DNA of 64,000 bases from Betaproteobacteria bacterium (GTDB taxonomy: Bacteria; Bdellovibrionota_B; Oligoflexia; Silvanigrellales; Silvanigrellaceae). Made by a program: the position numbers and the translations under genes. The notes beneath the pieces were generated by a model. It was not told the DNA's origin. It searched no databases and worked only from the letters and a program-made list of their open reading frames with translations. Location: assembly GCA_016868315.1 (NCBI GenBank), contig VGHE01000001.1:62001-126000 (forward strand). Reading direction: 5' to 3'. This document shows, one piece after another, positions 26,140-37,765 of this stretch (the first letter of the stretch is position 1; each line of letters begins with the position of its first letter).

Positions 26140-26901
26140 ATGAGGGTTGTGACCTACAACATTCATAAAGGTTTTTCGATCGCCAACAGGCAGTTCGTGT
26201 TGGAAGACATGCGCAGAGCAATTCACAATCTGAACGCAGATGTGGTTCTCTTGCAGGAGGTGCAGGGAGAGCACCGTCGCAAGGCTCGCACAGTCGAGCG
26301 TTGGCCTGCGGCAGAGCAGCATGTTTTTCTTGCAGACGGTCATTTTGACTACAAAGTCTACGGACGTACCTGGGATGGCTGGGATGGCCATCATGGCAAT
26401 GCTGTGCTCAGCCGTTTTCCCATTGTTTACTCAAACAATATTGACGTCTCGAATGTTTTTTTTCAAAAGCGCTCGCTGCTGCACGTCATTGTTCTGGTTG
26501 CCCCGGAACAGCCACCGGTGCACTTCATTTGCCTGCATTTTGATTTGCACGAGAAAGGCAGGCGTACCCAGGTCGATCGTCTGATTGAGCGCATCGAGCA
26601 GACCGTGCCCCATCACAGCCCGCTTATCATTGCTGGAGATTTTAACGATTGGCGTGGAATTATTTCGCAGCATCTCGAGTCAGGCTGTGGGATGGTGGAG
26701 GCTCATAAGGAAATACACGGGCGGTACGCTCGCTCCTTTCCCAGCGCTTTTCCCCTTTTGCCACTCGATCGCATGTACATCCGCGGCCTCGATTGTCGTT
26801 CGATAAAAAGTTTGAGCGGCACGCCGTGGACTCAGTTGTCCGACCACGTGCCGCTGATTGCGGATTTTGGTTTTCGGGAATCTCTTACAAGCCCGGAATG
26901 A
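26140..26901 (+). CDS. Endonuclease/exonuclease/phosphatase family protein (YbhP-like)
   Basis: A 253-residue protein of the EEP fold. It begins VVTYNIHKG and contains DVVLLQEVQ (metal-binding Glu), AGDFNDW (Asp and Asn) and LSDHVPLIADF (the catalytic Asp-His). Family members hydrolyse phosphodiesters in DNA, sphingomyelin or phosphoinositides. Next to a ClsB-like gene the product may act on lipid headgroups rather than nucleic acids; this is inference. AAGGAAAG stands before the ATG. Its end overlaps the convergent metalloprotease gene by 17 bases. Confidence 0.85.
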   Translation: MRVVTYNIHKGFSIANRQFVLEDMRRAIHNLNADVVLLQEVQGEHRRKARTVERWPAAEQHVFLADGHFDYKVYGRTWDGWDGHHGNAVLSRFPIVYSNNIDVSNVFFQKRSLLHVIVLVAPEQPPVHFICLHFDLHEKGRRTQVDRLIERIEQTVPHHSPLIIAGDFNDWRGIISQHLESGCGMVEAHKEIHGRYARSFPSAFPLLPLDRMYIRGLDCRSIKSLSGTPWTQLSDHVPLIADFGFRESLTSPE

Positions 26902-28708
26902 ATGCCACGGGGGCAGCTCGCGGAGCAGTTGCTTCAGAATACGAGTTCGCCAGCCTCTTCAGATTTGATTCGACAACCGAGCGTTCGTTTGCACCGAGGC
27001 CTTGAGCAGGGGCGGCCAGTCGCACTCTTTCAAGGGCACGCTGGATTTCGTAGACTGCGGTTTCACGCTTTTGTTCTGACAATTGCGATTTGAAGTCGAT
27101 GATCTTGAGTGCTGTTTTCATCATTCCGCGCATCGGTTTTTGCACCATGCCTGGAAGCGGAACAACGAGGTTTTCCAGTACAGTTGTGCCCTGAATGAGA
27201 CCTGCAACAACATAGTCAACCGGGTCGCCCACATCACCTTGGTTGCAATCGTAACGTTTAGACATGTCTTCGTCGGTGCAGAATGGCAGCGGTGCTGCAG
27301 GACTCTCACCGAAATAACCCCAGCGGATGGCAGCGGTATCATAGGAGCCAGGTAGAGTTCTGATGTTCGTTACAAAGCCAGGTTCATAGTCCATGACGGA
27401 GCTCGAAATTCCATTGCTGTCGATCTTGGTTGAACCAGCAAAGTTGTGGCGTAGTCCGAGCGAATGTCCAAACTCGTGCATAATGACGCTGTAGTAGTAT
27501 CCCTTGATGTATTCATCTGAGGTCTTCGAGTTCGTGTCTGCAAAGAATGTGACCACGGGACTCTCGCCGACGCCCTCGACCAGTGGGACGTTACCAATTT
27601 TTCCCACGAGCTTGCTGAACTGTGGCGTCGCTTCAGCAGTGTACTTGTAGATGTCTTCAAAGCCTTTGCGTGTTGTGCTGCCATTGATAAGAATTTGGGT
27701 TGCGAGAACCTCTCCAGTCAGTGGGTTCACCATTGTCGGCGCATATCCAGCCCACGGAACCTCTTGGTCGAGGCCATCAATCCATTTCACAACGTTGTAG
27801 CGAGGATCTCCGAGGTCAATGTTATCGTCGGCCAATTCAGTTTTGAAGGCTGCAAATCCGAACGATATATTCCAACTTTCTACCGCGCGGCGACCGATAT
27901 CGACATATTCCTTGGGGAAGTCTTTGAGGTAGACGATTTGTTGTGCAGTTTTTTTGCTCTCGACGTCTATTTTATAATGAGCAATCGGCAAGGTTTCGTC
28001 GGTGCCGGGGCGTCTTGCTGCGGGGAAGAAGCCAATGTTCTGTGTGCGCGCAAGACTCGCTGTGCGCCCAAGGATTTTTGGATTCTTATCTTGCCGTTTC
28101 AGGAAAAGGCGAATTTTGACCTCTCCCGAACGCTTCAGGCTTGCATCAGGTGCTGATTTTGCAAGAGCGAATGAAACAGTGTGCAGCAGGTCAACCACAA
28201 CGGTGTCTGCATCTTGTTCGACTTTAATGACTTTGGGCTCGGCGATAGTCTGCCAGCTTCCGGCGTCGCGCCCTGCATCGAGGTCAACTGTTGCTCCACC
28301 GATGCTATTCCAAAGACTCAGTTCGTTGCCAGCGGTTGAAAAGTCGACTTCGATTTTTCCATCTGCTGTGTCCTTCACATCGAAGGAAAGAAGTTTTTCG
28401 AGGCGGTTTGAGCTCTGACTGGCAACAACGAGTTGCTGCTGACCTGCTTCATTTTCGGCGAGAATAAGGCGACTTTCCACCGGGCGGAAGTTGAGGTTTA
28501 GCGCTGTGCTAAAGAATCCCTTGGTTTCGATCACATTGAGGCCAAACAGAAATGTGTCTTCGAGGTCGCGTTTTTCCAGAATGGCGCGGTCAGCGCTTGT
28601 CTTAATGAACTTAACCTTCGAGTCCTGCTTGCCACTGCAAGCCAAGGTCAGGGTGCCCAACGACAGCGCGGAGAAGAGTGAAAGTGCAACCAGAATGGAT
28701 TTTTTCAT
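26885..28708 (-). CDS. Metzincin-type zinc metalloprotease lipoprotein (DUF5117/4953-like)
   Basis: A 607-residue lipoprotein with the lipobox LTLAC (Cys24). The zinc motif HEFGHSLGLRH starts at His410, and SSVMDYEPG supplies the Met-turn typical of metzincins. The roughly 380-residue N-terminal region, with segments such as ENEAGQQQLVVAS, matches the general layout of the large 'zinc-dependent metalloprotease' group found in Bacteroidetes and Proteobacteria; I could not align it further. It is probably surface or periplasmic. The target proteins are unknown. GAGG lies before the ATG. Its 3' end overlaps the EEP gene by 17 bases. Confidence 0.8.
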   Translation of the reverse strand: MKKSILVALSLFSALSLGTLTLACSGKQDSKVKFIKTSADRAILEKRDLEDTFLFGLNVIETKGFFSTALNLNFRPVESRLILAENEAGQQQLVVASQSSNRLEKLLSFDVKDTADGKIEVDFSTAGNELSLWNSIGGATVDLDAGRDAGSWQTIAEPKVIKVEQDADTVVVDLLHTVSFALAKSAPDASLKRSGEVKIRLFLKRQDKNPKILGRTASLARTQNIGFFPAARRPGTDETLPIAHYKIDVESKKTAQQIVYLKDFPKEYVDIGRRAVESWNISFGFAAFKTELADDNIDLGDPRYNVVKWIDGLDQEVPWAGYAPTMVNPLTGEVLATQILINGSTTRKGFEDIYKYTAEATPQFSKLVGKIGNVPLVEGVGESPVVTFFADTNSKTSDEYIKGYYYSVIMHEFGHSLGLRHNFAGSTKIDSNGISSSVMDYEPGFVTNIRTLPGSYDTAAIRWGYFGESPAAPLPFCTDEDMSKRYDCNQGDVGDPVDYVVAGLIQGTTVLENLVVPLPGMVQKPMRGMMKTALKIIDFKSQLSEQKRETAVYEIQRALERVRLAAPAQGLGANERSVVESNLKRLANSYSEATAPRAAPVAFIPGL

Positions 28709-28879: not shown

Positions 28880-29662
28880 GTGGTCGTCGACTGGACGAAA
28901 ATTGAAGCCCTCGCCATGGATATCGACGGTACACTCAGTACCCGCGGGCGATTTGCTGCCGAGGTGGTTGCAGTTTTGCACGCCCTAAAGCGCGCAGGCT
29001 TTACTTTGATTCTGGTGACCGGACGACCTTCGGGGTGGGTGCAGGGGTTGGTTTCATATCTCCCAGTCGATGCGGCCATTGCAGAGAATGGTGGAGTTGT
29101 CTTTCGTGGGGCAGAGGCAGCTCCATTGCTTCGGAAGAGCAATGGTGATGATTATGAGGATGCAATCGACGTTGGTTCTCGACGGGCTCTTCTGGCCGAG
29201 GTGTTCAATCGAGTTGTTCAAAAATATCCTGGTTTGAAAGTGACCGAGGACAACGTCTACCGTTTAAGCGACTACACCTTTCATGTTGCTGGTCTCGATT
29301 CTGCTCAGCTTTTTGAAATCAGGGCTTTTGTAGAGAGCCTCGATTTTGCATTCACCTGGTCAACCATCCATGCTCACATCATGCCGCACGGACAAGAAAA
29401 GGGCAGCGCGTTGTGTTGGCTCCTGCAGCAGATGCATCTTCCGGCTTCACCGGCAAGCTCCACTCTGACGGTCGGTGATAGCCCGAACGATGTGACTCTT
29501 TTTGACGAAGGCAGATTTCCTTGCTCAGCCGGAGTGGCGAATATCGAGAAGTACCGCGGTGTGATGAGTGCATTCCCAAAGTTCATCAGCACTCGCTCTG
29601 AGGGCGATGGGTTTGTAGAACTCGCCTGTAAGCTTTTAGATGCGAAAGGTGCGCTGCTGTGA
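28880..29662 (+). CDS. HAD-superfamily phosphatase (type IIB-like)
   Basis: A 260-residue protein. Motif I is AMDIDGTLST (residues 11-20) with the two catalytic Asp; motif II VTGRPSG follows near 49-55. The cap and GDSPNDVTLF motif IV near 202-211 match the Cof/phosphoglycolate or sucrose-phosphatase-like branch. Members remove phosphate from sugars, nucleotides or lipids. The start is GTG at 28880 with AAAGGAG upstream. Its stop overlaps the GTG of the next gene by 4 bases (GTGA), so both are translated together; whether the two products share a task is unclear. Confidence 0.85.
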   Translation: MVVDWTKIEALAMDIDGTLSTRGRFAAEVVAVLHALKRAGFTLILVTGRPSGWVQGLVSYLPVDAAIAENGGVVFRGAEAAPLLRKSNGDDYEDAIDVGSRRALLAEVFNRVVQKYPGLKVTEDNVYRLSDYTFHVAGLDSAQLFEIRAFVESLDFAFTWSTIHAHIMPHGQEKGSALCWLLQQMHLPASPASSTLTVGDSPNDVTLFDEGRFPCSAGVANIEKYRGVMSAFPKFISTRSEGDGFVELACKLLDAKGALL

Positions 29663-31230
29663 GTGCTTCCAAAACTCCCCAGATTCTTTATTCCGACGCA
29701 CATTGGCTTGTTGTCGAGAAGCCTTATGGCCTGGCGACTCACGGAGGTGACCCGGGAGACTTGGGAGTGCAGGAGTGGTTGGAACTTCATCTGGGTGTGA
29801 AGACCTTTGTGTGTTCACGGCTCGATAAGGGAACGACAGGTGTTCTGATATTTGCACGCACCCCAGAAGCCAGTGCTCAGGCAGAGCGCGTGCACACCGA
29901 CGAGTCGTCGCGCAAAACGTATTATTTTCTGGCAAGCAAAGATGTCTCTAAAAAAAATGGGCTGAACTGGGTTTGTGAATTACCTCTCGATGGAAAAGCG
30001 GCGCGCACCGAATTCTTTTTCGAGACACAGCTCAACAAAGATGTTTTTCTCTACAAAGCAGTGATTGCGCGTGGACGCATGCACCAGATCCGCAGGCACG
30101 CCTCGGAAAGTGGATGCCCGCTGTGGGGTGATGTTGAGTATGGTGGCTGCAATGCAGCACGAATTGCTCTTCACTGTGCAGAACTTCAATGGCCGGGGCT
30201 GGCCAGTGTGATTCGCTCTCCGCTGCCTCAAAGCTTCAGTGCCGAGGTGCACAAGCAAGGACGCACTGCTGTAGAGAGCGCTGTTGCGCATGAACGTCGC
30301 GGATTTTGGTTTGCCAGCATCGCTCAAGCCTGGCGTGTGGTGCAGCGTGGTGAGCTTACAGATTACGACGTTTCGGTTGATGTATATGGGGCACATGCAT
30401 TGGTTTGGGTCTATTGCGACTCAGAGCGCGAAGAGCTTGTTTCGGCGCTCGAACCGCTTTTGCTGGAATTGCAGCACCGCTTTGGTGTTGTTGGCTGTGT
30501 TTGGCGTCGGATTGCAAAAAATCCTCATAAGAAGGGGCTCGTTCAGGAAATGTGGACTGCGGGGCAAGAGCCTCCGGAGACTTTCACTGTGAGCGAGCAT
30601 GATTGGAAGGCATTGGTCACTTTGACTTTGCGCCAGCATGTTGGATTGTTTTTGGATCACCGGGACAATCGACGTCGGGTGCAGCAGATGGCACCCGGCA
30701 AGCGGATCGCGAATCTATTTTCCTATACCTGCGCATTTGCAATCGCCGCGGCTCTTGCTGATGCAGAGGTTGTTGTGAATGTGGATGCAGCCGCAAGTGC
30801 TTTGAACGTTGGAAAGAAGAATTTCGAAGTCAATCAGCTCGCAGAGCGGCGCACGGGTAAATTCGTTGAGCGAGATGTGCGTGTTTGGCTCGAGAAACAA
30901 GTGCAAAAGATTGAGCGTGGAGAGGATTCGGGTTGGGATGTCATCGTGTGCGACCCTCCAACCTTTTCCTCGACTCAGGATTTAGGTGTTTTTCATGTTG
31001 CGCAGGAATGGCAGGAGCTTGCTGAAAATTGTGCGCGGATATTGAGAGCAGATGGTGTTTGTTTTTTCTCAATGAACAGCCAAGCACACGAGCGGCTTGC
31101 ATTCGAGGCGGCGTTGCAGAAGTGTTTTGCTGCGGTGCAGCGCTTGAAAGCGCCGTTCGATTTTCCTGAAATTGCAGGACGCTCGCACGCCCGTTTTTAT
31201 GCTTGCCGTGAGCCTCGTTTCGCGCGCTAA
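29659..31230 (+). CDS. Fusion of an RluA-type pseudouridine synthase and an RlmI-like SAM methyltransferase
   Basis: A 523-residue protein with two rRNA-modification domains. Residues about 8-210 are a pseudouridine synthase: VVEKPYGLATHGG opens the fold, and SRLDKGTTGVLIFAR carries the catalytic Asp56. Residues about 290-520 are a Rossmann methyltransferase of the RlmI/RlmKL kind: the SAM loop ANLFSYTCAFAIAAA near 350, then NVDAAASALN, and the substrate motif VIVCDPPTFSS near 430. Each half is complete by its motifs. Both families act on 23S rRNA, so one protein may make two marks. The start is GTG at 29659 inside the HAD stop. A run of eight A at about codon 97 is a mild slippage site. Confidence 0.8.
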   Translation: MSASKTPQILYSDAHWLVVEKPYGLATHGGDPGDLGVQEWLELHLGVKTFVCSRLDKGTTGVLIFARTPEASAQAERVHTDESSRKTYYFLASKDVSKKNGLNWVCELPLDGKAARTEFFFETQLNKDVFLYKAVIARGRMHQIRRHASESGCPLWGDVEYGGCNAARIALHCAELQWPGLASVIRSPLPQSFSAEVHKQGRTAVESAVAHERRGFWFASIAQAWRVVQRGELTDYDVSVDVYGAHALVWVYCDSEREELVSALEPLLLELQHRFGVVGCVWRRIAKNPHKKGLVQEMWTAGQEPPETFTVSEHDWKALVTLTLRQHVGLFLDHRDNRRRVQQMAPGKRIANLFSYTCAFAIAAALADAEVVVNVDAAASALNVGKKNFEVNQLAERRTGKFVERDVRVWLEKQVQKIERGEDSGWDVIVCDPPTFSSTQDLGVFHVAQEWQELAENCARILRADGVCFFSMNSQAHERLAFEAALQKCFAAVQRLKAPFDFPEIAGRSHARFYACREPRFAR

Positions 31231-31271: not shown

Positions 31272-32471
31272 TTACTTGATCCGCAAAGGGATTTGGAAAG
31301 GAACACGCTTTGTACATGCAGACTCTGGTTCGCCTGGGAAAGAGCAGCATCTCTCGCCGGTCAATTGCGCGAGTGATGCACTCGCAATGGTTTCCTTAGT
31401 AATCTTCGCTACCTGCTTATCTTTGCCTGCCTCAAAGGTGAAAACATCGCTCCGGGTGCGACCTGAGAGATCTTTAACCGCCATCGAAGCGATGCGGCAA
31501 TTCATCTCCTGTTGTTCTTTCACGGGTTTGAACTGCTCGACAAATTCACTCAAAATAACACTTTCAGTGACAGGGTAAGCGAGGCCTTTGCCGTAAACTC
31601 CAGTTTTCGTCAGGATACTGTTGTATTGCTCATAAGCACTCATCCCAGCATAGGGTGCACGGCTTTGTGACGTCGAATGAAAAAAGCGGAGTCTTGGAAA
31701 AACAGCTGCAGCGCTTTGGATCGATGATTCAGCGACATTTGTATCAAAGTTTGCGTGATTCCCAGAATCCGGATCCCAGCCTGGATTATCGGTGACGAGC
31801 AGAATCACTTTGTCTGCTTTTAGGCGCTCGGGTTTCGAGTTTTTGTCTGTATCAAACATCTTGAGAGCCTCTCGCAGGCCTCCTTGTGAGTATTCCTGTG
31901 AGTCGTCCCCACCTGCTGCAGCCCACCTGCCCAAGCTGCTGGCCAACCCACTGGCAGCTGAGAAATTGTGGCGTGCATCAATTGAGTCCCGGAAACCAAT
32001 GGCTCCAAATCGGGCATCCCATCCCTTTGCTTCAATCGCCCGAGCGAATGCAACGACGTGGTTCTTAATTGAGTTAATGTTACTCTGCATTGAGCCCGTG
32101 ATGTCGAGTACAAATATAATGTCGGTCGGATATTTATCAGACGCCATTTTTTCGGTTTCAACTTGCGATTTGCACACCGTGGTGAGCTGAAAAATCTGCT
32201 CGTCGGGGCTTGAATTGACTGAGATGGACGCGGGAACTGTGCGTTGTTCGTCGGGGCAATCGAGTGCCTGTAACGCCAGCTGCAGCCCTTCACCCGCGGC
32301 ACTGCTCTTGCCACCTGGCGCTTGGCCAGGCTTCTTCATGCCTGCTGCGTTCGCGCCAGCCGCTGTGGTTTCTTTCTTCTTGGTTGGTGTGTCGCTCGCG
32401 TAGTGGCCGGATCTGCAAGAAGCCGTTGCCCACCCAAGAATTACTGCAGACACGTAAATCAGAGTTTTCAC
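31272..32471 (-). CDS. VWA-domain lipoprotein
   Basis: A 399-residue lipoprotein: the signal ends at Cys19 (lipobox-like TASC), followed by a Lys/Thr/Ala/Gly-rich linker of about 40 residues. The VWA domain starts near 115 with IIFVLDITGSM, a full MIDAS (Asp123, Thr125, Ser127), then GAIGFRD and ILLVTDNPG. A C-terminal part of about 120 residues is beta-rich with Cys near the end (ERCCSF, SACT). This domain set resembles the Mg2+-dependent adhesion domains of surface proteins. It is similar in build to the lipoprotein at 16772-17647. Ligand unknown. Confidence 0.82.
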   Translation of the reverse strand: MKTLIYVSAVILGWATASCRSGHYASDTPTKKKETTAAGANAAGMKKPGQAPGGKSSAAGEGLQLALQALDCPDEQRTVPASISVNSSPDEQIFQLTTVCKSQVETEKMASDKYPTDIIFVLDITGSMQSNINSIKNHVVAFARAIEAKGWDARFGAIGFRDSIDARHNFSAASGLASSLGRWAAAGGDDSQEYSQGGLREALKMFDTDKNSKPERLKADKVILLVTDNPGWDPDSGNHANFDTNVAESSIQSAAAVFPRLRFFHSTSQSRAPYAGMSAYEQYNSILTKTGVYGKGLAYPVTESVILSEFVEQFKPVKEQQEMNCRIASMAVKDLSGRTRSDVFTFEAGKDKQVAKITKETIASASLAQLTGERCCSFPGEPESACTKRVPFQIPLRIK

Positions 32472-32702: not shown

Positions 32703-34811
32703 TTAAAGTTTTTCGTAAAGACGTTCCCATTTCTCTTGATGTGCCGCGAGTTCATTCTCGAGGCGAGTCACCTCAGCTTGACGCTTCTGTAGCTCCTGAA
32801 AAGTGAGCCCTTGCTCATATCCTTCATTCAGCAATCGCGTTGCATTGTTGAGTTCTGTTTCGAGAGCCGGGATGCGCTCCTCGAGCTTTTCAAGTTCCTT
32901 TTTTTCGGAGTATGTCAGCTTGGCCTTTTCATTTTTGGCTGCTTCTTTGGTGGCAGATTTTGTTAGGTTGCTGGTGTTCTTTTTTTCCTCTTTTGCCGCT
33001 GAAGTCTTGGCTGGATTCAGTGCGACGAGAAGTGCGAGTGCTTGCTCCAAGTTCGGAACGATTGTCCAGTGGTAAAAGCTCGTGTCTTGTTGTTTCTCTA
33101 TTCCGGAGAACGCCAGAATATGCGTGGCAACGCGTTGTATAAAGTAACGATCGTGGCTTGTGAAAACAACGCCGCCGGAAAAATTGACGAGTGTTTCTTC
33201 AAGCCCTTGAAGCGTGGGGATATCGAGGTCATTGGTTGGTTCGTCAAGAACCAGTGTGTTGGCCTGTTCCAGCATCATGCGTGCCATCAGTACCCGCGCT
33301 TGTTCGCCTCCTGAAAGATTTTTCAGTTTGCGTTCGGAGTCGTGGCGACGGAAGAGAAACTTTTCAAGGTAGCTCATTACGTGGAGATAACCCTGACTCG
33401 TGTGAACATAGTCACCTTCAGGGCAGATCGCGCTGCGAACGGTTTGGTTGAAATCAAGTTCATGGCGATGTTGATCGAAGTAACTGACTTTGATCAGGTC
33501 ATGTCTCTTGCACGTGCCTGTGTCAGGTTCAAGGCGCCCCGCAAGAATCTTGAGAAGATGTGTTTTGCCGCAGCCATTGGGGCCGACAATAGCCAGACGT
33601 GTGCCTGGTTTGATTTTGAGCGATAAATCTTTGGCCAGCAGGGGTTTATCGGAGCCACCTGGATGGGCGTAAGAAAGTTTCTCGAACTCCAGCAAGACCT
33701 GAGAGCCAAGATTTTCTTTCACTGAAATCCAATAATCCGTTGCATCGCGTTCTCTGCTTTCCATGGCAGCTTCAAAACTGAGAGCAACTGTAGGTTTGTC
33801 GGCAGCGCGTTTTTCAGTTGCTTGAAGTTTGACTTCAAGAACAGCAGCACGATTGATACGCGCCTGTTGTTTGGTTGTACGAGCTGCAGGACCGCGGCTG
33901 AGCCATGCAAGCTCTCTGCGCATCAGATTCGCCATGCGTTGATTGCGGGTGCGGTTCTCCTCCATGCGGCGCACCTTTTCTGCAGCATGCGCTTCGTAAT
34001 TGCCGGAATAGAATTGAATGTCACCCTCTGCGATTTCAAGAATTCGGTTAGCCAAGGTGTCTAGAAGTGAACGGTCGTGCGAGACGATGGCCATGGCAAT
34101 GGGCTCGGGTTCATCGTCTAGGAGGGGAACGCCCAGCATTTGAAAGCCGGTTTCAGATAAGTCGAGCAGAATGTCTTCCAGCCATTCGACCGTCTCCACG
34201 TCCAGGTGGTTGGTCGGTTCGTCGAGCAAGAGCAATTGCGGCTGACTGATGAAGGAGTGAATCAATTGCAGACGCTTCTGCTGCCCACCTGAGAGGTGTC
34301 TGACCTCACGCTCGGTGAATTCCTCTAGTCCGGCCACACGCAGAGCACCAGCGAGTGCATTGGGAATATCAACGCTGCGCGAGTCCAATGCGTGCTGGAG
34401 CTTATCGAGCTCGGCGAGCCATTTTTCATCGCTTCCCAATTCAGGAGAGTCTTCGAGTCTGGCTAAGTGCTTCTCAAACCGGCTCTGAGTTTCTTCGGCG
34501 TTGTCCGTTCCGAAGATCTTTTTGAGCTGGGAGGTCAGAATATCTTTGACTGTGTGCTCGAGTGAGAAGGGGATGGCCTGGCTCACGTAGGCTTTGCGCA
34601 GGCCGCTGCGCCAAGCTGCATGGCCGGCATCGGATTGTCCGACTCCGGCGAGAATTTTCAGGAGTGTTGATTTACCGGCTCCATTGGGTCCAACGATGCC
34701 AAGCCGGTCGCCTGGGTGAAGGGTGAGTGACAGTCCCTCAAACAGTGTGGTGACGCCAATGCGTACGGCCAAGTCTTGGCTAGTGAGCAGTGGGGAGGTG
34801 GCATTGGCCAT
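32703..34811 (-). CDS. ABC-F family ATPase (Uup-like)
   Basis: A 702-residue soluble protein with two ABC domains and no membrane part. The first Walker A is GPNGAGKST near 41-49, with signature LSGGQQKR and Walker B LLLLDEPTNHLD. The second has GPNGCGKT near 390, LSGGEQAR and LVLDEPTNDLD. A charged linker and a C-terminal coiled coil (about 630-702) of the Uup type follow. ABC-F proteins act on the ribosome to rescue stalled or misfolded states, and some protect against antibiotics; the coiled coil favours the housekeeping Uup branch. GAGAGG stands before the ATG. Probably cotranscribed with the M14 gene 19 bases upstream. Confidence 0.88.
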   Translation of the reverse strand: MANATSPLLTSQDLAVRIGVTTLFEGLSLTLHPGDRLGIVGPNGAGKSTLLKILAGVGQSDAGHAAWRSGLRKAYVSQAIPFSLEHTVKDILTSQLKKIFGTDNAEETQSRFEKHLARLEDSPELGSDEKWLAELDKLQHALDSRSVDIPNALAGALRVAGLEEFTEREVRHLSGGQQKRLQLIHSFISQPQLLLLDEPTNHLDVETVEWLEDILLDLSETGFQMLGVPLLDDEPEPIAMAIVSHDRSLLDTLANRILEIAEGDIQFYSGNYEAHAAEKVRRMEENRTRNQRMANLMRRELAWLSRGPAARTTKQQARINRAAVLEVKLQATEKRAADKPTVALSFEAAMESRERDATDYWISVKENLGSQVLLEFEKLSYAHPGGSDKPLLAKDLSLKIKPGTRLAIVGPNGCGKTHLLKILAGRLEPDTGTCKRHDLIKVSYFDQHRHELDFNQTVRSAICPEGDYVHTSQGYLHVMSYLEKFLFRRHDSERKLKNLSGGEQARVLMARMMLEQANTLVLDEPTNDLDIPTLQGLEETLVNFSGGVVFTSHDRYFIQRVATHILAFSGIEKQQDTSFYHWTIVPNLEQALALLVALNPAKTSAAKEEKKNTSNLTKSATKEAAKNEKAKLTYSEKKELEKLEERIPALETELNNATRLLNEGYEQGLTFQELQKRQAEVTRLENELAAHQEKWERLYEKL

Positions 34812-34830: not shown

Positions 34831-36327
34831 TCAAAGGCGAATGTCTCCGAGTTGTGTCACCTGATCTTTGCTAACTTCAAAGGTGACAGATTTTTTCAGA
34901 TCATCGCTCTGATAAATGTTGAATTGATAGGTGCCGGGCAGAAGGGTGTTGAAGATAAATCCATCGGCCGAGCGTGTCCGAAACGGCTTAACAGATTTGT
35001 CCTCACCCGTGAAATCCTCCCAGACGCCATTTTCAGCTCTGCTGATCCTGTAGCTCACGCCGGCCAGAGAGCGTCCCACAAGGCGACCTTGGACACCCTG
35101 TTGAAGTGTTTGGCGGATGAGCGTTTTCCATCCTTCCTCTTGACGCGCAACAGTGACATCGCGCCAGCGCTTGTGAGAGGGCTGAAAGCCCTGCATCCGC
35201 CCATTCACTTCCATCGCGAACGCCAGTACGCCGGCCTCACGGAATTGCCAGTCGGCATCAGTGCCGTCAGCTTCATACAGGAGCTCTGGTGGAGTGCCGA
35301 GAGCGTATGTGCCCTTTCGGCCAGCATCATCAACGATGTTGGCCTTCATTTCTGCACCAATGCTTTTGAACAATTCCAGGGAAGGATTTTTCTCTTTGCG
35401 GCATCCATAGGGATAGAGAATCATTTCGCTGAATGCATGGTAGCTGATGTTTGCGATGGGCCGCTCGCTGAGCACAAGTTCAATCATGGCTTTGGTCTCG
35501 GGCTCACTTGCTGCTTCTGGGCCGCGGAATGAATCGCTTGATTTGTTTGGGCTCGAGCCATTGCACGAACCCCAGAGTGCTGGATAGTTGCGATTAATGT
35601 CTACGCCAAATGAGCGTCCCTCTGTTTCCCATGCATTCTTGCGCCACATGTTTTGGCCTTCGTGCACGAACTGATTGCCGTCAGGATTGACCTGAGGAAC
35701 CAGTATGATGCGCGCCGAGTCGAGCCAATGTGTGACCTCTGGATCAGTGCCGTATCCGTTCAGAAGAACCTGAGCCATATGCATAACAACTTCTGTGGTC
35801 ATGACTTCACGTGCGTGGTGCATCGCGTTGAAAAGTAAAGTGGGCTGATTTTGATTCTTGGGCTGTGCTGAAATGAACAACGCTTGGATAGGGCGTTTGC
35901 GGCGTGTAATGCCGATGGTGCGCAGCGTTGTGAGACTCGGATAGTTTTGTGACAGAGAGGAAAGCGTGTCGAGCACCTCGGTTGGTGTGAAATAAGGTTC
36001 AAGATTCTCTCGCTGCAGCTGTGCGTTAAGAGGTGAGAATTGAATCTGGAAACCTTTTTCTTTGAGCTCGTCGAGGCTGTTCTGCTCGAGAGCAACTTCC
36101 GCGAGGTTTTCTTCCAAGGAAACGCCCAAGATGTCGAAAGAGGCCAGGTCACGCAAATCCTCTGCACGACGCACGGGGTCGTGCGAGATTTTAACACTCA
36201 CGATGCGTTTCGGGGCAGAGCTGAGTGCAGCAGATTGAATATTCATTGAAAGCGCACCAATGGAACCAATGAGAGCCAGCAACACACGCTGGCTAATGGG
36301 AAAACGACTTCCGGATTGTCTGGGCAT
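34831..36327 (-). CDS. Exported M14-family zinc carboxypeptidase
   Basis: A 498-residue protein from the ATG at 36327 with GGAGG upstream; a longer frame exists but runs through a strong terminator and lacks a start signal. The signal peptide is followed by a propeptide-like region of about 100 residues. The zinc motif HHARE uses His171 and Glu174, with the third ligand in SYHAFSEMILYPYG. NPDGNQ, GVDINRNYP and AMEVNG (catalytic Glu) complete the M14 pattern. A small beta-sandwich tail (about 400-498) is typical of carboxypeptidases in predatory and gliding bacteria. It removes C-terminal residues from peptides outside the cytosol. Confidence 0.85.
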   Translation of the reverse strand: MPRQSGSRFPISQRVLLALIGSIGALSMNIQSAALSSAPKRIVSVKISHDPVRRAEDLRDLASFDILGVSLEENLAEVALEQNSLDELKEKGFQIQFSPLNAQLQRENLEPYFTPTEVLDTLSSLSQNYPSLTTLRTIGITRRKRPIQALFISAQPKNQNQPTLLFNAMHHAREVMTTEVVMHMAQVLLNGYGTDPEVTHWLDSARIILVPQVNPDGNQFVHEGQNMWRKNAWETEGRSFGVDINRNYPALWGSCNGSSPNKSSDSFRGPEAASEPETKAMIELVLSERPIANISYHAFSEMILYPYGCRKEKNPSLELFKSIGAEMKANIVDDAGRKGTYALGTPPELLYEADGTDADWQFREAGVLAFAMEVNGRMQGFQPSHKRWRDVTVARQEEGWKTLIRQTLQQGVQGRLVGRSLAGVSYRISRAENGVWEDFTGEDKSVKPFRTRSADGFIFNTLLPGTYQFNIYQSDDLKKSVTFEVSKDQVTQLGDIRL

Positions 36328-36342
36328 GTGCGCCTCCGAAAT

Positions 36343-36370
36343 AAAAAAAAGGATGGCCTCTGAGCCACCC
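36343..36370 (-). terminator. Rho-independent terminator of the M28 peptidase gene
   Basis: Read on the minus strand: GGGTGGC, loop TCAGAG, GCCATCC, directly followed by eight T (36343-36350). The stem has one G-T wobble. It lies 49 bases after the stop of the M28 gene and just before the M14 start, separating the two peptidase genes into different transcripts. Confidence 0.88.
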
Positions 36371-36418
36371 ATTCTGCCTGTCTTTCGACTTGCGTCAAAT
36401 AAATACGTTTTATTCTGG

Positions 36419-37765
36419 TCAGAGTGCCAGGCTGAGCGCTGTGTTGACCTGAAGTGTAGCGAGCCGCAGCATGTACTCTTTGTTGATAATATTAATCGAA
36501 TCACATTGCTTGTGGTAGCAGGGGTTTTCATCACCACCGAAGAAATTCTCTGAGATGATGGTCGCGGGAATATTCTTGTTCCAGAACGAAGCATGGTCGG
36601 AGCGGTTTGTGCAGGCTGCAACCTTCTTCATATTGAGTTCAAGATTCATGTTCAATTCTTCAATCACACGCGTGATGGGTTTGCTATCCGGACGGTCGCA
36701 GTCCATGGCATGGTATGCAAAGTCGTTGTTGCCGTCGTAGCCAATCATGTCAGCCTGAACGACTCCCAAAAAGGTCTCTTCCTTGCGCAGCTGGTTCGCA
36801 TAGGCGCGCGACCCAATCAGACCAAGTTCTTCCTGATCGAAGCCAACAAAGCGGATTGATACGGGCAAAGTGTTGAGCTTTGAGAGCAGGTGAGCCGCTT
36901 CAAGGAATCCGACAGTGCCCGAGCCATCGTCATCCGCGCCTTTGTTGCGCACGGAGTCCATGTGACCAGAGACGATAACGAATTTGGTGCGATCGGCTCC
37001 CCACAAGGTTCCTTCAACGTTGGCGCCCTTGTATCCGTTGTATGTGTAGGGAACGAGCTTTGTTTCAATTCCCAGTCCAGAAAGGGTCTGCATAACGTAT
37101 TGTTGCGTGAGGTTGCGGTTTTCTGTACCGCCGCGCTCCGTGATGCGGACTTCCTTGCCTTCAAGCATGAAAGTGCGGTCGCCCGTGAGAGTTTCGAGCA
37201 TTTCCATCATGCGTCCAAGGTCAGGCTGAACAGCCTCAGCCTTTGTGACCGCGCGAGGTCGCCAAGAGGGAGGAGGAGGAAGGTTAGGGCGCTCGAGTTG
37301 ATCGGCGGCCAAAAAACGCTCGTCATCGAGTGAGACTGGCCACACGAAATTTTTTGCTTCTAACTGCAGACGGGTCGTGTCGGCGGCATTCATAAGATAC
37401 ATGCCGCGGTTGCGCGAACCCGCCACAAGTTGTCCGCTCACCGGAGCTTCGCCTTCCACGAATGAGAGGGTGGTTCCAGCCGGCCAAGGAAGTTCGATAA
37501 CGGTTCCCGAAGATGATTTTGGTTTCTTGCTGAGCACCTGGATTTGCCGGCCTTGACCCATTTCAAATTGGCCAAGAACCCATAGATTCTCTGCTACAGA
37601 GGACTTGGCTGTGGTGATTCTCAGCCAGACGGTCGTTGACTTCGGATTAAAATGTTGAATTGCGAGTGCGGGTCCATGTCCCATGGCCAGCGCTGCGTCA
37701 TGAAAGAAAAAGCCGCCAGTGATGAGGAGTGCTGCCGAGGTTGCAAATAGTGATGATAGTCTCAT
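36419..37765 (-). CDS. Exported M28-family aminopeptidase
   Basis: A 448-residue exported protein: signal peptide to about residue 27 (ALA-MGHG). The N-terminal half (about 30-190) looks like a beta-rich accessory region. The catalytic domain shows VSGHMDS with His268 and Asp270, the bridging Asp in GADDDGSGT, the Glu-Glu pair in DQEELG, Asp in QADMIGYD, and the last His in CYHKQCDSI, all as in two-zinc M28 aminopeptidases. It cuts N-terminal residues from peptides in the periplasm or outside. A strong terminator follows it. Together with the M14 enzyme next door it could trim peptides from both ends. Confidence 0.87.
   Translation of the reverse strand: MRLSSLFATSAALLITGGFFFHDAALAMGHGPALAIQHFNPKSTTVWLRITTAKSSVAENLWVLGQFEMGQGRQIQVLSKKPKSSSGTVIELPWPAGTTLSFVEGEAPVSGQLVAGSRNRGMYLMNAADTTRLQLEAKNFVWPVSLDDERFLAADQLERPNLPPPPSWRPRAVTKAEAVQPDLGRMMEMLETLTGDRTFMLEGKEVRITERGGTENRNLTQQYVMQTLSGLGIETKLVPYTYNGYKGANVEGTLWGADRTKFVIVSGHMDSVRNKGADDDGSGTVGFLEAAHLLSKLNTLPVSIRFVGFDQEELGLIGSRAYANQLRKEETFLGVVQADMIGYDGNNDFAYHAMDCDRPDSKPITRVIEELNMNLELNMKKVAACTNRSDHASFWNKNIPATIISENFFGGDENPCYHKQCDSINIINKEYMLRLATLQVNTALSLAL

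Follow-up and report, generated by a model that had tools for sequence, protein, structure and literature searches.

The gene at 29659-31230 (+) of the window, by which we mean the whole 64,000-nucleotide stretch of DNA analyzed here, encodes a real and conserved joining of two complete RNA-modifying domains, an RluA-type pseudouridine synthase and an RlmI/RlmK-superfamily methyltransferase. The two share a single chain of 523 amino acids that begins at a GTG codon, ends at a TAA codon and has no internal stop. A literature search through titles and the opening lines of abstracts, with most subscription papers outside its coverage, returned no paper on this pairing of domains, and the two-in-one enzyme has probably gone undescribed so far. 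To our knowledge, it would be the first chain to pair uridine isomerization with methylation.

Domain organization and predicted structure

The synthase domain, as placed by PF00849 and VIA-align, occupies residues about 6-201 (29674-30261, +). PF00849 matches residues 15-149 at 66.3 bits against a Pfam gathering cut-off of 26.8, and the catalytic aspartate, Asp56 of the motif SRLD, is encoded by the codon GAT at 29824-29826 (+). The methyltransferase module, placed by PF10672 and VIA-align, extends over residues about 205-523 (30271-31227, +) and consists of a central alpha/beta part and a Rossmann domain; PF10672 matches residues 303-505 at 79.2 bits against a gathering cut-off of 27. Within this module lie the SAM motif I region (residues 349-361, RIANLFSYTCAFA; 30703-30741, +) and a DPPTF motif (residues 432-436; 30952-30966, +), with DPP at 432-434. 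A preliminary description of this DNA had claimed a complete RluA-type synthase with Asp56 and a complete SAM methyltransferase, and both claims are borne out by these matches. The inter-domain linker, residues about 196-222 (30244-30324, +), shows lower conservation in alignment A2 and in pairwise identities. The RluA-type domain forms the N-terminus, where RlmI has its PUA domain, and Pfam lists no PUA family in the window protein at E values up to 1.

An AF2 model computed from 31 sequences (pLDDT 89.7, pTM 0.89) confidently predicts a two-domain structure. In VIA-align comparisons, residues 6-201 of the model match RluC (PDBID 1v9k) with a Z score of 22.8 (2.2 Å, 191 residues aligned) and RluA (2i82) with a Z score of 22.6 (2.1 Å, 183 aligned), a tie between the two synthases. 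Residues 201-522 match 3vse with a Z score of 30.9 (2.3 Å, 298 aligned), and the methyltransferase half matches SMU.776 (3ldf), RlmKL (3v8v) and RlmI (3c0k) with Z scores of 28.6 (5.0 Å, 312 aligned), 28.1 (2.7 Å, 277 aligned) and 26.4 (3.8 Å, 301 aligned), respectively. Both halves of the model are also matched by separate chains, E4 and EC, of PDB entry 6yxx, a trypanosome mitoribosomal large-subunit assembly intermediate that includes the synthase mt-LAF3. Chain E4, which matches the methyltransferase half, is not among the PDB sequence-search matches listed.

Distribution of the fusion

The same domain pair was sought in other genomes, a search that the preliminary description had suggested, and 37 distinct full-length copies were collected. 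The junction between the halves is open in all 37, the window copy counted. Of the 48 loci yielded by an independent genome scan by alignment, 29 hold full-length fusions and 2 hold copies that contig ends cut short; the other 17 are ordinary RluA-type proteins. The junction is open in each of these 29 full-length matches as well, two of which (L050 and L055) sit in records titled complete chromosomes, and each half of the protein forms one clade among the sampled rows. Against these observations, a sequencing or assembly artefact that fused two genes is exceedingly improbable, and a read-through between two genes, the refuting condition named in the preliminary description, is excluded by the open junction in 29 of 29 and 37 of 37 copies.

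The hosts of the fusion comprise Silvanigrellales, Krumholzibacteriota (Krumholzibacteriia), Desulfocapsaceae and unclassified MAGs. Among the Desulfocapsaceae are Desulfosediminicola flagellatus and Desulfopila sp. IMCC35008, whose genomes are titled complete. In a search of 144 related genomes, the fusion turned up at 64% identity in one genome (G002) of the same-genus/same-family set, at 40-49% in three others (G003 to G005) and at 44% in a 'same domain' genome (G082). A further genome (G001) carries a 72%-identical piece ended by its contig end, and the fusion is absent in all 8 genomes of another genus (g5) in the family of the window. Because the patterns of the genome scan were located in the synthase half, an additional search was made with the whole fusion profile. 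This search matched 6 of 58 genomes in the phylum of the window, at least 2 of 395 sampled genomes in the phylum of G152, G152 counted (22 genomes listed, with three candidates scored in 20 of the 22), and 26 of 80 genomes in the phylum of G155. The last group comprises 20 full-length matches, 4 partial ones at contig ends and 2 weak ones (108-118 bits). The partial matches above 150 bits, five in number (G001, G612, G615, G616 and G620), all lie at contig ends, and no unfused complete copy of either half was seen among the matches listed by the whole profile in the 58, 395 and 80 genomes.

The spread of the fusion is thus patchy, yet it turns up again in several bacterial groups that are only distantly related, and this recurrence argues for a real two-in-one enzyme and not a sequencing mistake. 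It also points to RNA modifications, of 23S rRNA or another RNA, that are perhaps unmapped in little-studied bacteria. A phage or plasmid origin was rejected on searches of 72,556 plasmid and 50,697 phage records, where no single place covers 80% of the query, and of viral contigs, which hold no confirmed relative of the fusion.

Conservation of the two halves

D333, R335, D336, N352, L353, F354, D376, D406, D432, P433, P434 and N473, and with them three residues of the SAM motif I region and the DPP motif, are invariant in all 37 distinct full-length copies. Asp56 is kept in 36 of the 37. The remaining copy, L066, lies on a MAG contig (6001-7464, +) and has lost its synthase active site through the substitutions D56E, T59A, H142D, Q143R and H147L, with its methyltransferase half intact. 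Pfam no longer lists PF00849 in L066 at an E value of 1e-4, yet L066 scores 193 bits with the fusion's own profile, itself built with L066 among the rows. A single-sequence model of L066 (pLDDT 40.3) is too poor to interpret. Arg140 is replaced by Lys in one copy other than L066.

Purifying selection acts on both halves in the eight close pairs for which it was measurable, with dN/dS between 0.067 and 0.258 in the synthase half and between 0.060 and 0.283 in the methyltransferase half. Thirteen pairs were computed, of which three are saturated in at least one half. Two more were set aside, the decayed L066-L064 pair (0.295 and 0.197 for the two halves) and the distant L052-L053 pair (0.191 and 0.129). 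The window copy is not represented among the eight pairs, its synonymous sites being saturated against L040, its nearest relative.

The loss of the active site in L066 suggests that the synthase chemistry may be dispensable, and it favors an alternative account in which the protein is effectively a methyltransferase and its synthase half acts chiefly as a platform for RNA binding or assembly. Comparable appended domains are the PUA domain of RlmI and the THUMP domain of RlmL. The trypanosome synthase mt-LAF3 lends this account a parallel, its catalytic function not being required according to a review (PMC11469412). Nevertheless, the retention of Asp56 in nearly every copy and the like constraint on both halves of the eight close pairs speak against a mere platform, and we judge this account quite unlikely.

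Identity of the synthase half

Among synthases of known structure, RluC is nearest to the N-terminal half in the profile-PDB search (81 bits, compared with 58.5 for RluA and 57.8 for RluD), and RluC (1v9k, 1xpi) is also joint best by structure. Unlike RluC itself, the synthase half scores far under the NCBIfam RluC cut-off (46.6 bits versus 378) and forms a clade of its own; indeed, it falls under every NCBIfam cut-off listed. The TIGR00005 model gives 80.5 bits versus a cut-off of 192.7 and is matched from position 72 on, so that the window protein has no counterpart of the model's N-terminal part. Judged by these scores, the synthase half classifies as a PF00849 protein outside the TIGR00005 subfamily. 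In a synthase tree that included 16 fusions, without L066 and with 17 near-duplicate or contig-truncated loci skipped, the fusion rows form one clade with a support of 98. Long branches meet in this tree, which singles out no RluA subfamily as sister to the fusion.

The modest scores are shared by other synthases. Ten further RluA-type proteins were scanned with NCBIfam, three from the window genome (L001, L002 and L003 of G000), five from G152 (L171 to L174 and L135) and two from G149 (L136 and L180), the synthase sets of the latter two genomes being scanned in part. Scores are low throughout; RluC is the best equivalog in none of the ten, and L135 alone passes an equivalog cut-off, that of TruC.

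An alternative reading would make the protein a two-activity enzyme that acts on tRNA or another structured RNA and not on 23S rRNA. The NCBIfam names assign RluA to tRNA as well as 23S rRNA and TruC to tRNA, and one fusion locus (L047) ties the TruC, TIGR01621 and RluC models at 42-45 bits, all of which would accommodate such a substrate. The proximity of the synthase half to RluC in the profile-PDB search points the other way, as do the named relatives of the methyltransferase half, RlmKL and RlmI, both of which are 23S rRNA enzymes. On balance we regard a substrate other than 23S rRNA as unlikely.

The genome that contains the window encodes a second composite protein (G000:C4, L220:1041-4040, +), in which a type III pantothenate kinase is joined to an RluA-type pseudouridine synthase in 999 amino acids. 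The N-terminus of this protein has a biotin/lipoate ligase-type match of 44.6 bits, in which no single stretch passes alone. G001, G002, G003 and G005 contain frames of 1002-1148 amino acids that match a synthase.

Identity of the methyltransferase half

The preliminary description had called the C-terminal half RlmI-like. RlmI (m5C1962, 3c0k) does share its superfamily and fold, but the closer comparison does not sustain an RlmI identity. At the column of Asn473 (31075-31077, +), all 19 RlmI-clade rows of a 102-row alignment, whose rows were grouped by the methyltransferase tree, carry Cys, and this Cys is the m5C nucleophile. All 37 fusions have Asn instead. In the same alignment, Asn occupies the column in 33 of 34 RlmK rows, both SMU.776/3vse rows and all 5 rows of unassigned types, and of the five L008-type rows four have Asp and one has Asn. 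Sequence searches also score the RlmK half of RlmKL above RlmI. The NCBIfam scores are 147 bits for the RlmK half, 92 for an m5C2499 model and 85 for RlmI, and the profile-PDB scores are 134.9 bits for SMU.776 (2b78), 130.5 for RlmKL and 113 for RlmI. The lack of a listed PUA family is a further difference from RlmI. Counter to a non-RlmI reading, Foldseek places RlmI (3c0k, rank 3) above RlmKL (rank 10), together with 3ldf, 1wxw (Thermus) and 3vse, and the runner-up among the NCBIfam methyltransferase models is an m5C model.

An RlmK orthologue or replacement was likewise rejected. The fusion scores 147 bits against the RlmKL equivalog cut-off of 466, and the window genome has its own RlmK (L006), which reaches 419 bits across the K half of that model, as well as an RlmI-clade protein with the Cys (L009). 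Among the 25 fusion genomes reached through genome-scan loci, 10 contain RlmKL-sized frames of 702-755 amino acids; the eight of these frames that were fetched all fall in the RlmK clade. At least in those 10 genomes, the presence of such frames beside the fusion indicates that the fusion adds an activity and does not replace RlmK. In six of the 25, the fusion is the sole PF10672 match.

The methyltransferase rows of the fusion group into a single clade (support 99-100), separate from the RlmK, RlmI and SMU.776 types. Two quick trees with SH-aLRT support only, one with 17 of the 37 fusions and with non-fusion rows limited to those above 50 bits and no shorter than 200 amino acids, the other a retest on 55 of 82 rows, give no firm branching order for these four types. 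The tree does not join the fusion to RlmK; forcing the two together costs 5.06 log-likelihood units (p-AU 0.19), and a union with RlmI likewise escapes rejection (p-AU 0.084). The SMU.776/3vse types are not united with the fusion by the tree, nor is that union rejected (p-AU 0.084). The nearest group is an uncharacterized type that includes L008, at a support of 90 that is not starred, the group itself having a support of 53. L008 (G000:C12), L184, L185, L093 and L094, which cluster closest to the fusion but not firmly, are small PF10672 methyltransferases with YTC and often CDPP-type motifs, as in the fusion.

SMU.776 (2b78, 3ldf) and 3vse, the latter presumably from S. aureus, resemble the fusion in having Asn and not Cys at the key column. 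SMU.776 gives the highest profile score and 3vse the highest Z score of any match; unlike the fusion, both correspond to the methyltransferase half only. We take them to be possibly of the RlmQ type. Seven lactic-acid genomes tried for RlmQ-type references contain no PF10672 match.

A putative two-activity RNA modifier

The fused domains are naturally read as a two-modification enzyme, and we infer that its steps are coupled. With moderate confidence, we favor a modifier that combines pseudouridylation through Asp56 with RlmK-like SAM-dependent methylation on immature 23S rRNA, in the manner of RlmKL. Support for this reading comes from the two catalytic motifs, which are intact in nearly all copies. 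The N-terminal RluA-type domain would convert a uridine to pseudouridine through Asp56, and a second site would be methylated from SAM by the C-terminal RlmK-like domain. Guanine N7 is the likeliest position for the methyl group; whichever it is, it would not be cytosine C5 modified through the cysteine route of RlmI. By analogy with RlmKL, both domains would engage one region of immature 23S rRNA, each with its own nearby nucleotide, and a single binding event would serve both steps. Activity of both sites, a 23S rRNA substrate, an m7G product and co-binding are all what we infer; the substrate is probably 23S rRNA, and the methyltransferase is probably of a non-m5C type, possibly m7G.

Like RlmKL (3v8v, 3v97), the fusion pairs two RNA-modification domains in a conserved unit with an RlmK-superfamily Rossmann module at the C-terminus. 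It differs from RlmKL in its N-terminal partner, which is a pseudouridine synthase and not RlmL, in forming a separate clade and in occurring in a host that keeps a separate RlmK. If it has both activities, the fusion is, as RlmKL is, a naturally occurring single chain that carries out two RNA modifications. It would also allow the coupling of modification enzymes to be tested directly, by separating or inactivating each half.

E. coli RlmKL joins RlmK and RlmL in one chain and makes m7G2069 and m2G2445, and RluC makes pseudouridines 955, 2504 and 2580 of 23S rRNA, according to PMC11194073; RlmQ makes m7G2574 according to the title of a work cited in PMC12805891. These target positions suggest domain V as a reasonable starting point for a search, and no more. 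A bolder and improbable version of the two-activity reading would have the two sites act in sequence on one or neighboring nucleotides of domain V, yielding a methylated pseudouridine or a tightly coupled pseudouridine/m7G pair in a single binding event, for example around 2574-2580, which we take to be the sites of RlmQ and RluC. We know of no single chain that makes such a modification step.

Gene neighborhood

An HAD-IIB phosphatase gene (28880-29662, +) lies upstream of the fusion gene, and the preliminary description had the two translationally coupled. The GTGA overlap at 29659-29662 on which that claim was based is present, but the arrangement is lineage-specific, being found in the window and in the same-genus L040 only of 32 loci compared (L046, L209 and L210 of these being without upstream sequence). 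The HAD gene was consequently rejected as a conserved partner, at 2 of 32 loci. For L063 and L210, the fusion itself was masked when the genes were picked. Elsewhere, a gene for an m5U-type RNA methyltransferase lies about 24 bases upstream of the fusion in L042, and a DEAD-box helicase is encoded upstream of it in L049; both are RNA-related and in keeping with the two-activity reading. Five loci (L051, L052, L053, L061 and L064) have a gene that abuts the fusion, the one scanned (L051) being thioredoxin-like. Most neighboring genes scanned show no obvious connection to RNA or lack a Pfam match, which speaks against that reading.

Around the fusion, the window also encodes a Met-zincin-like protein (26885-28708, -), a VWA-domain protein (31272-32471, -) and a zinc carboxypeptidase (34834-36621, -), and an ABC protein with two ATPases is encoded at 32703-34811.
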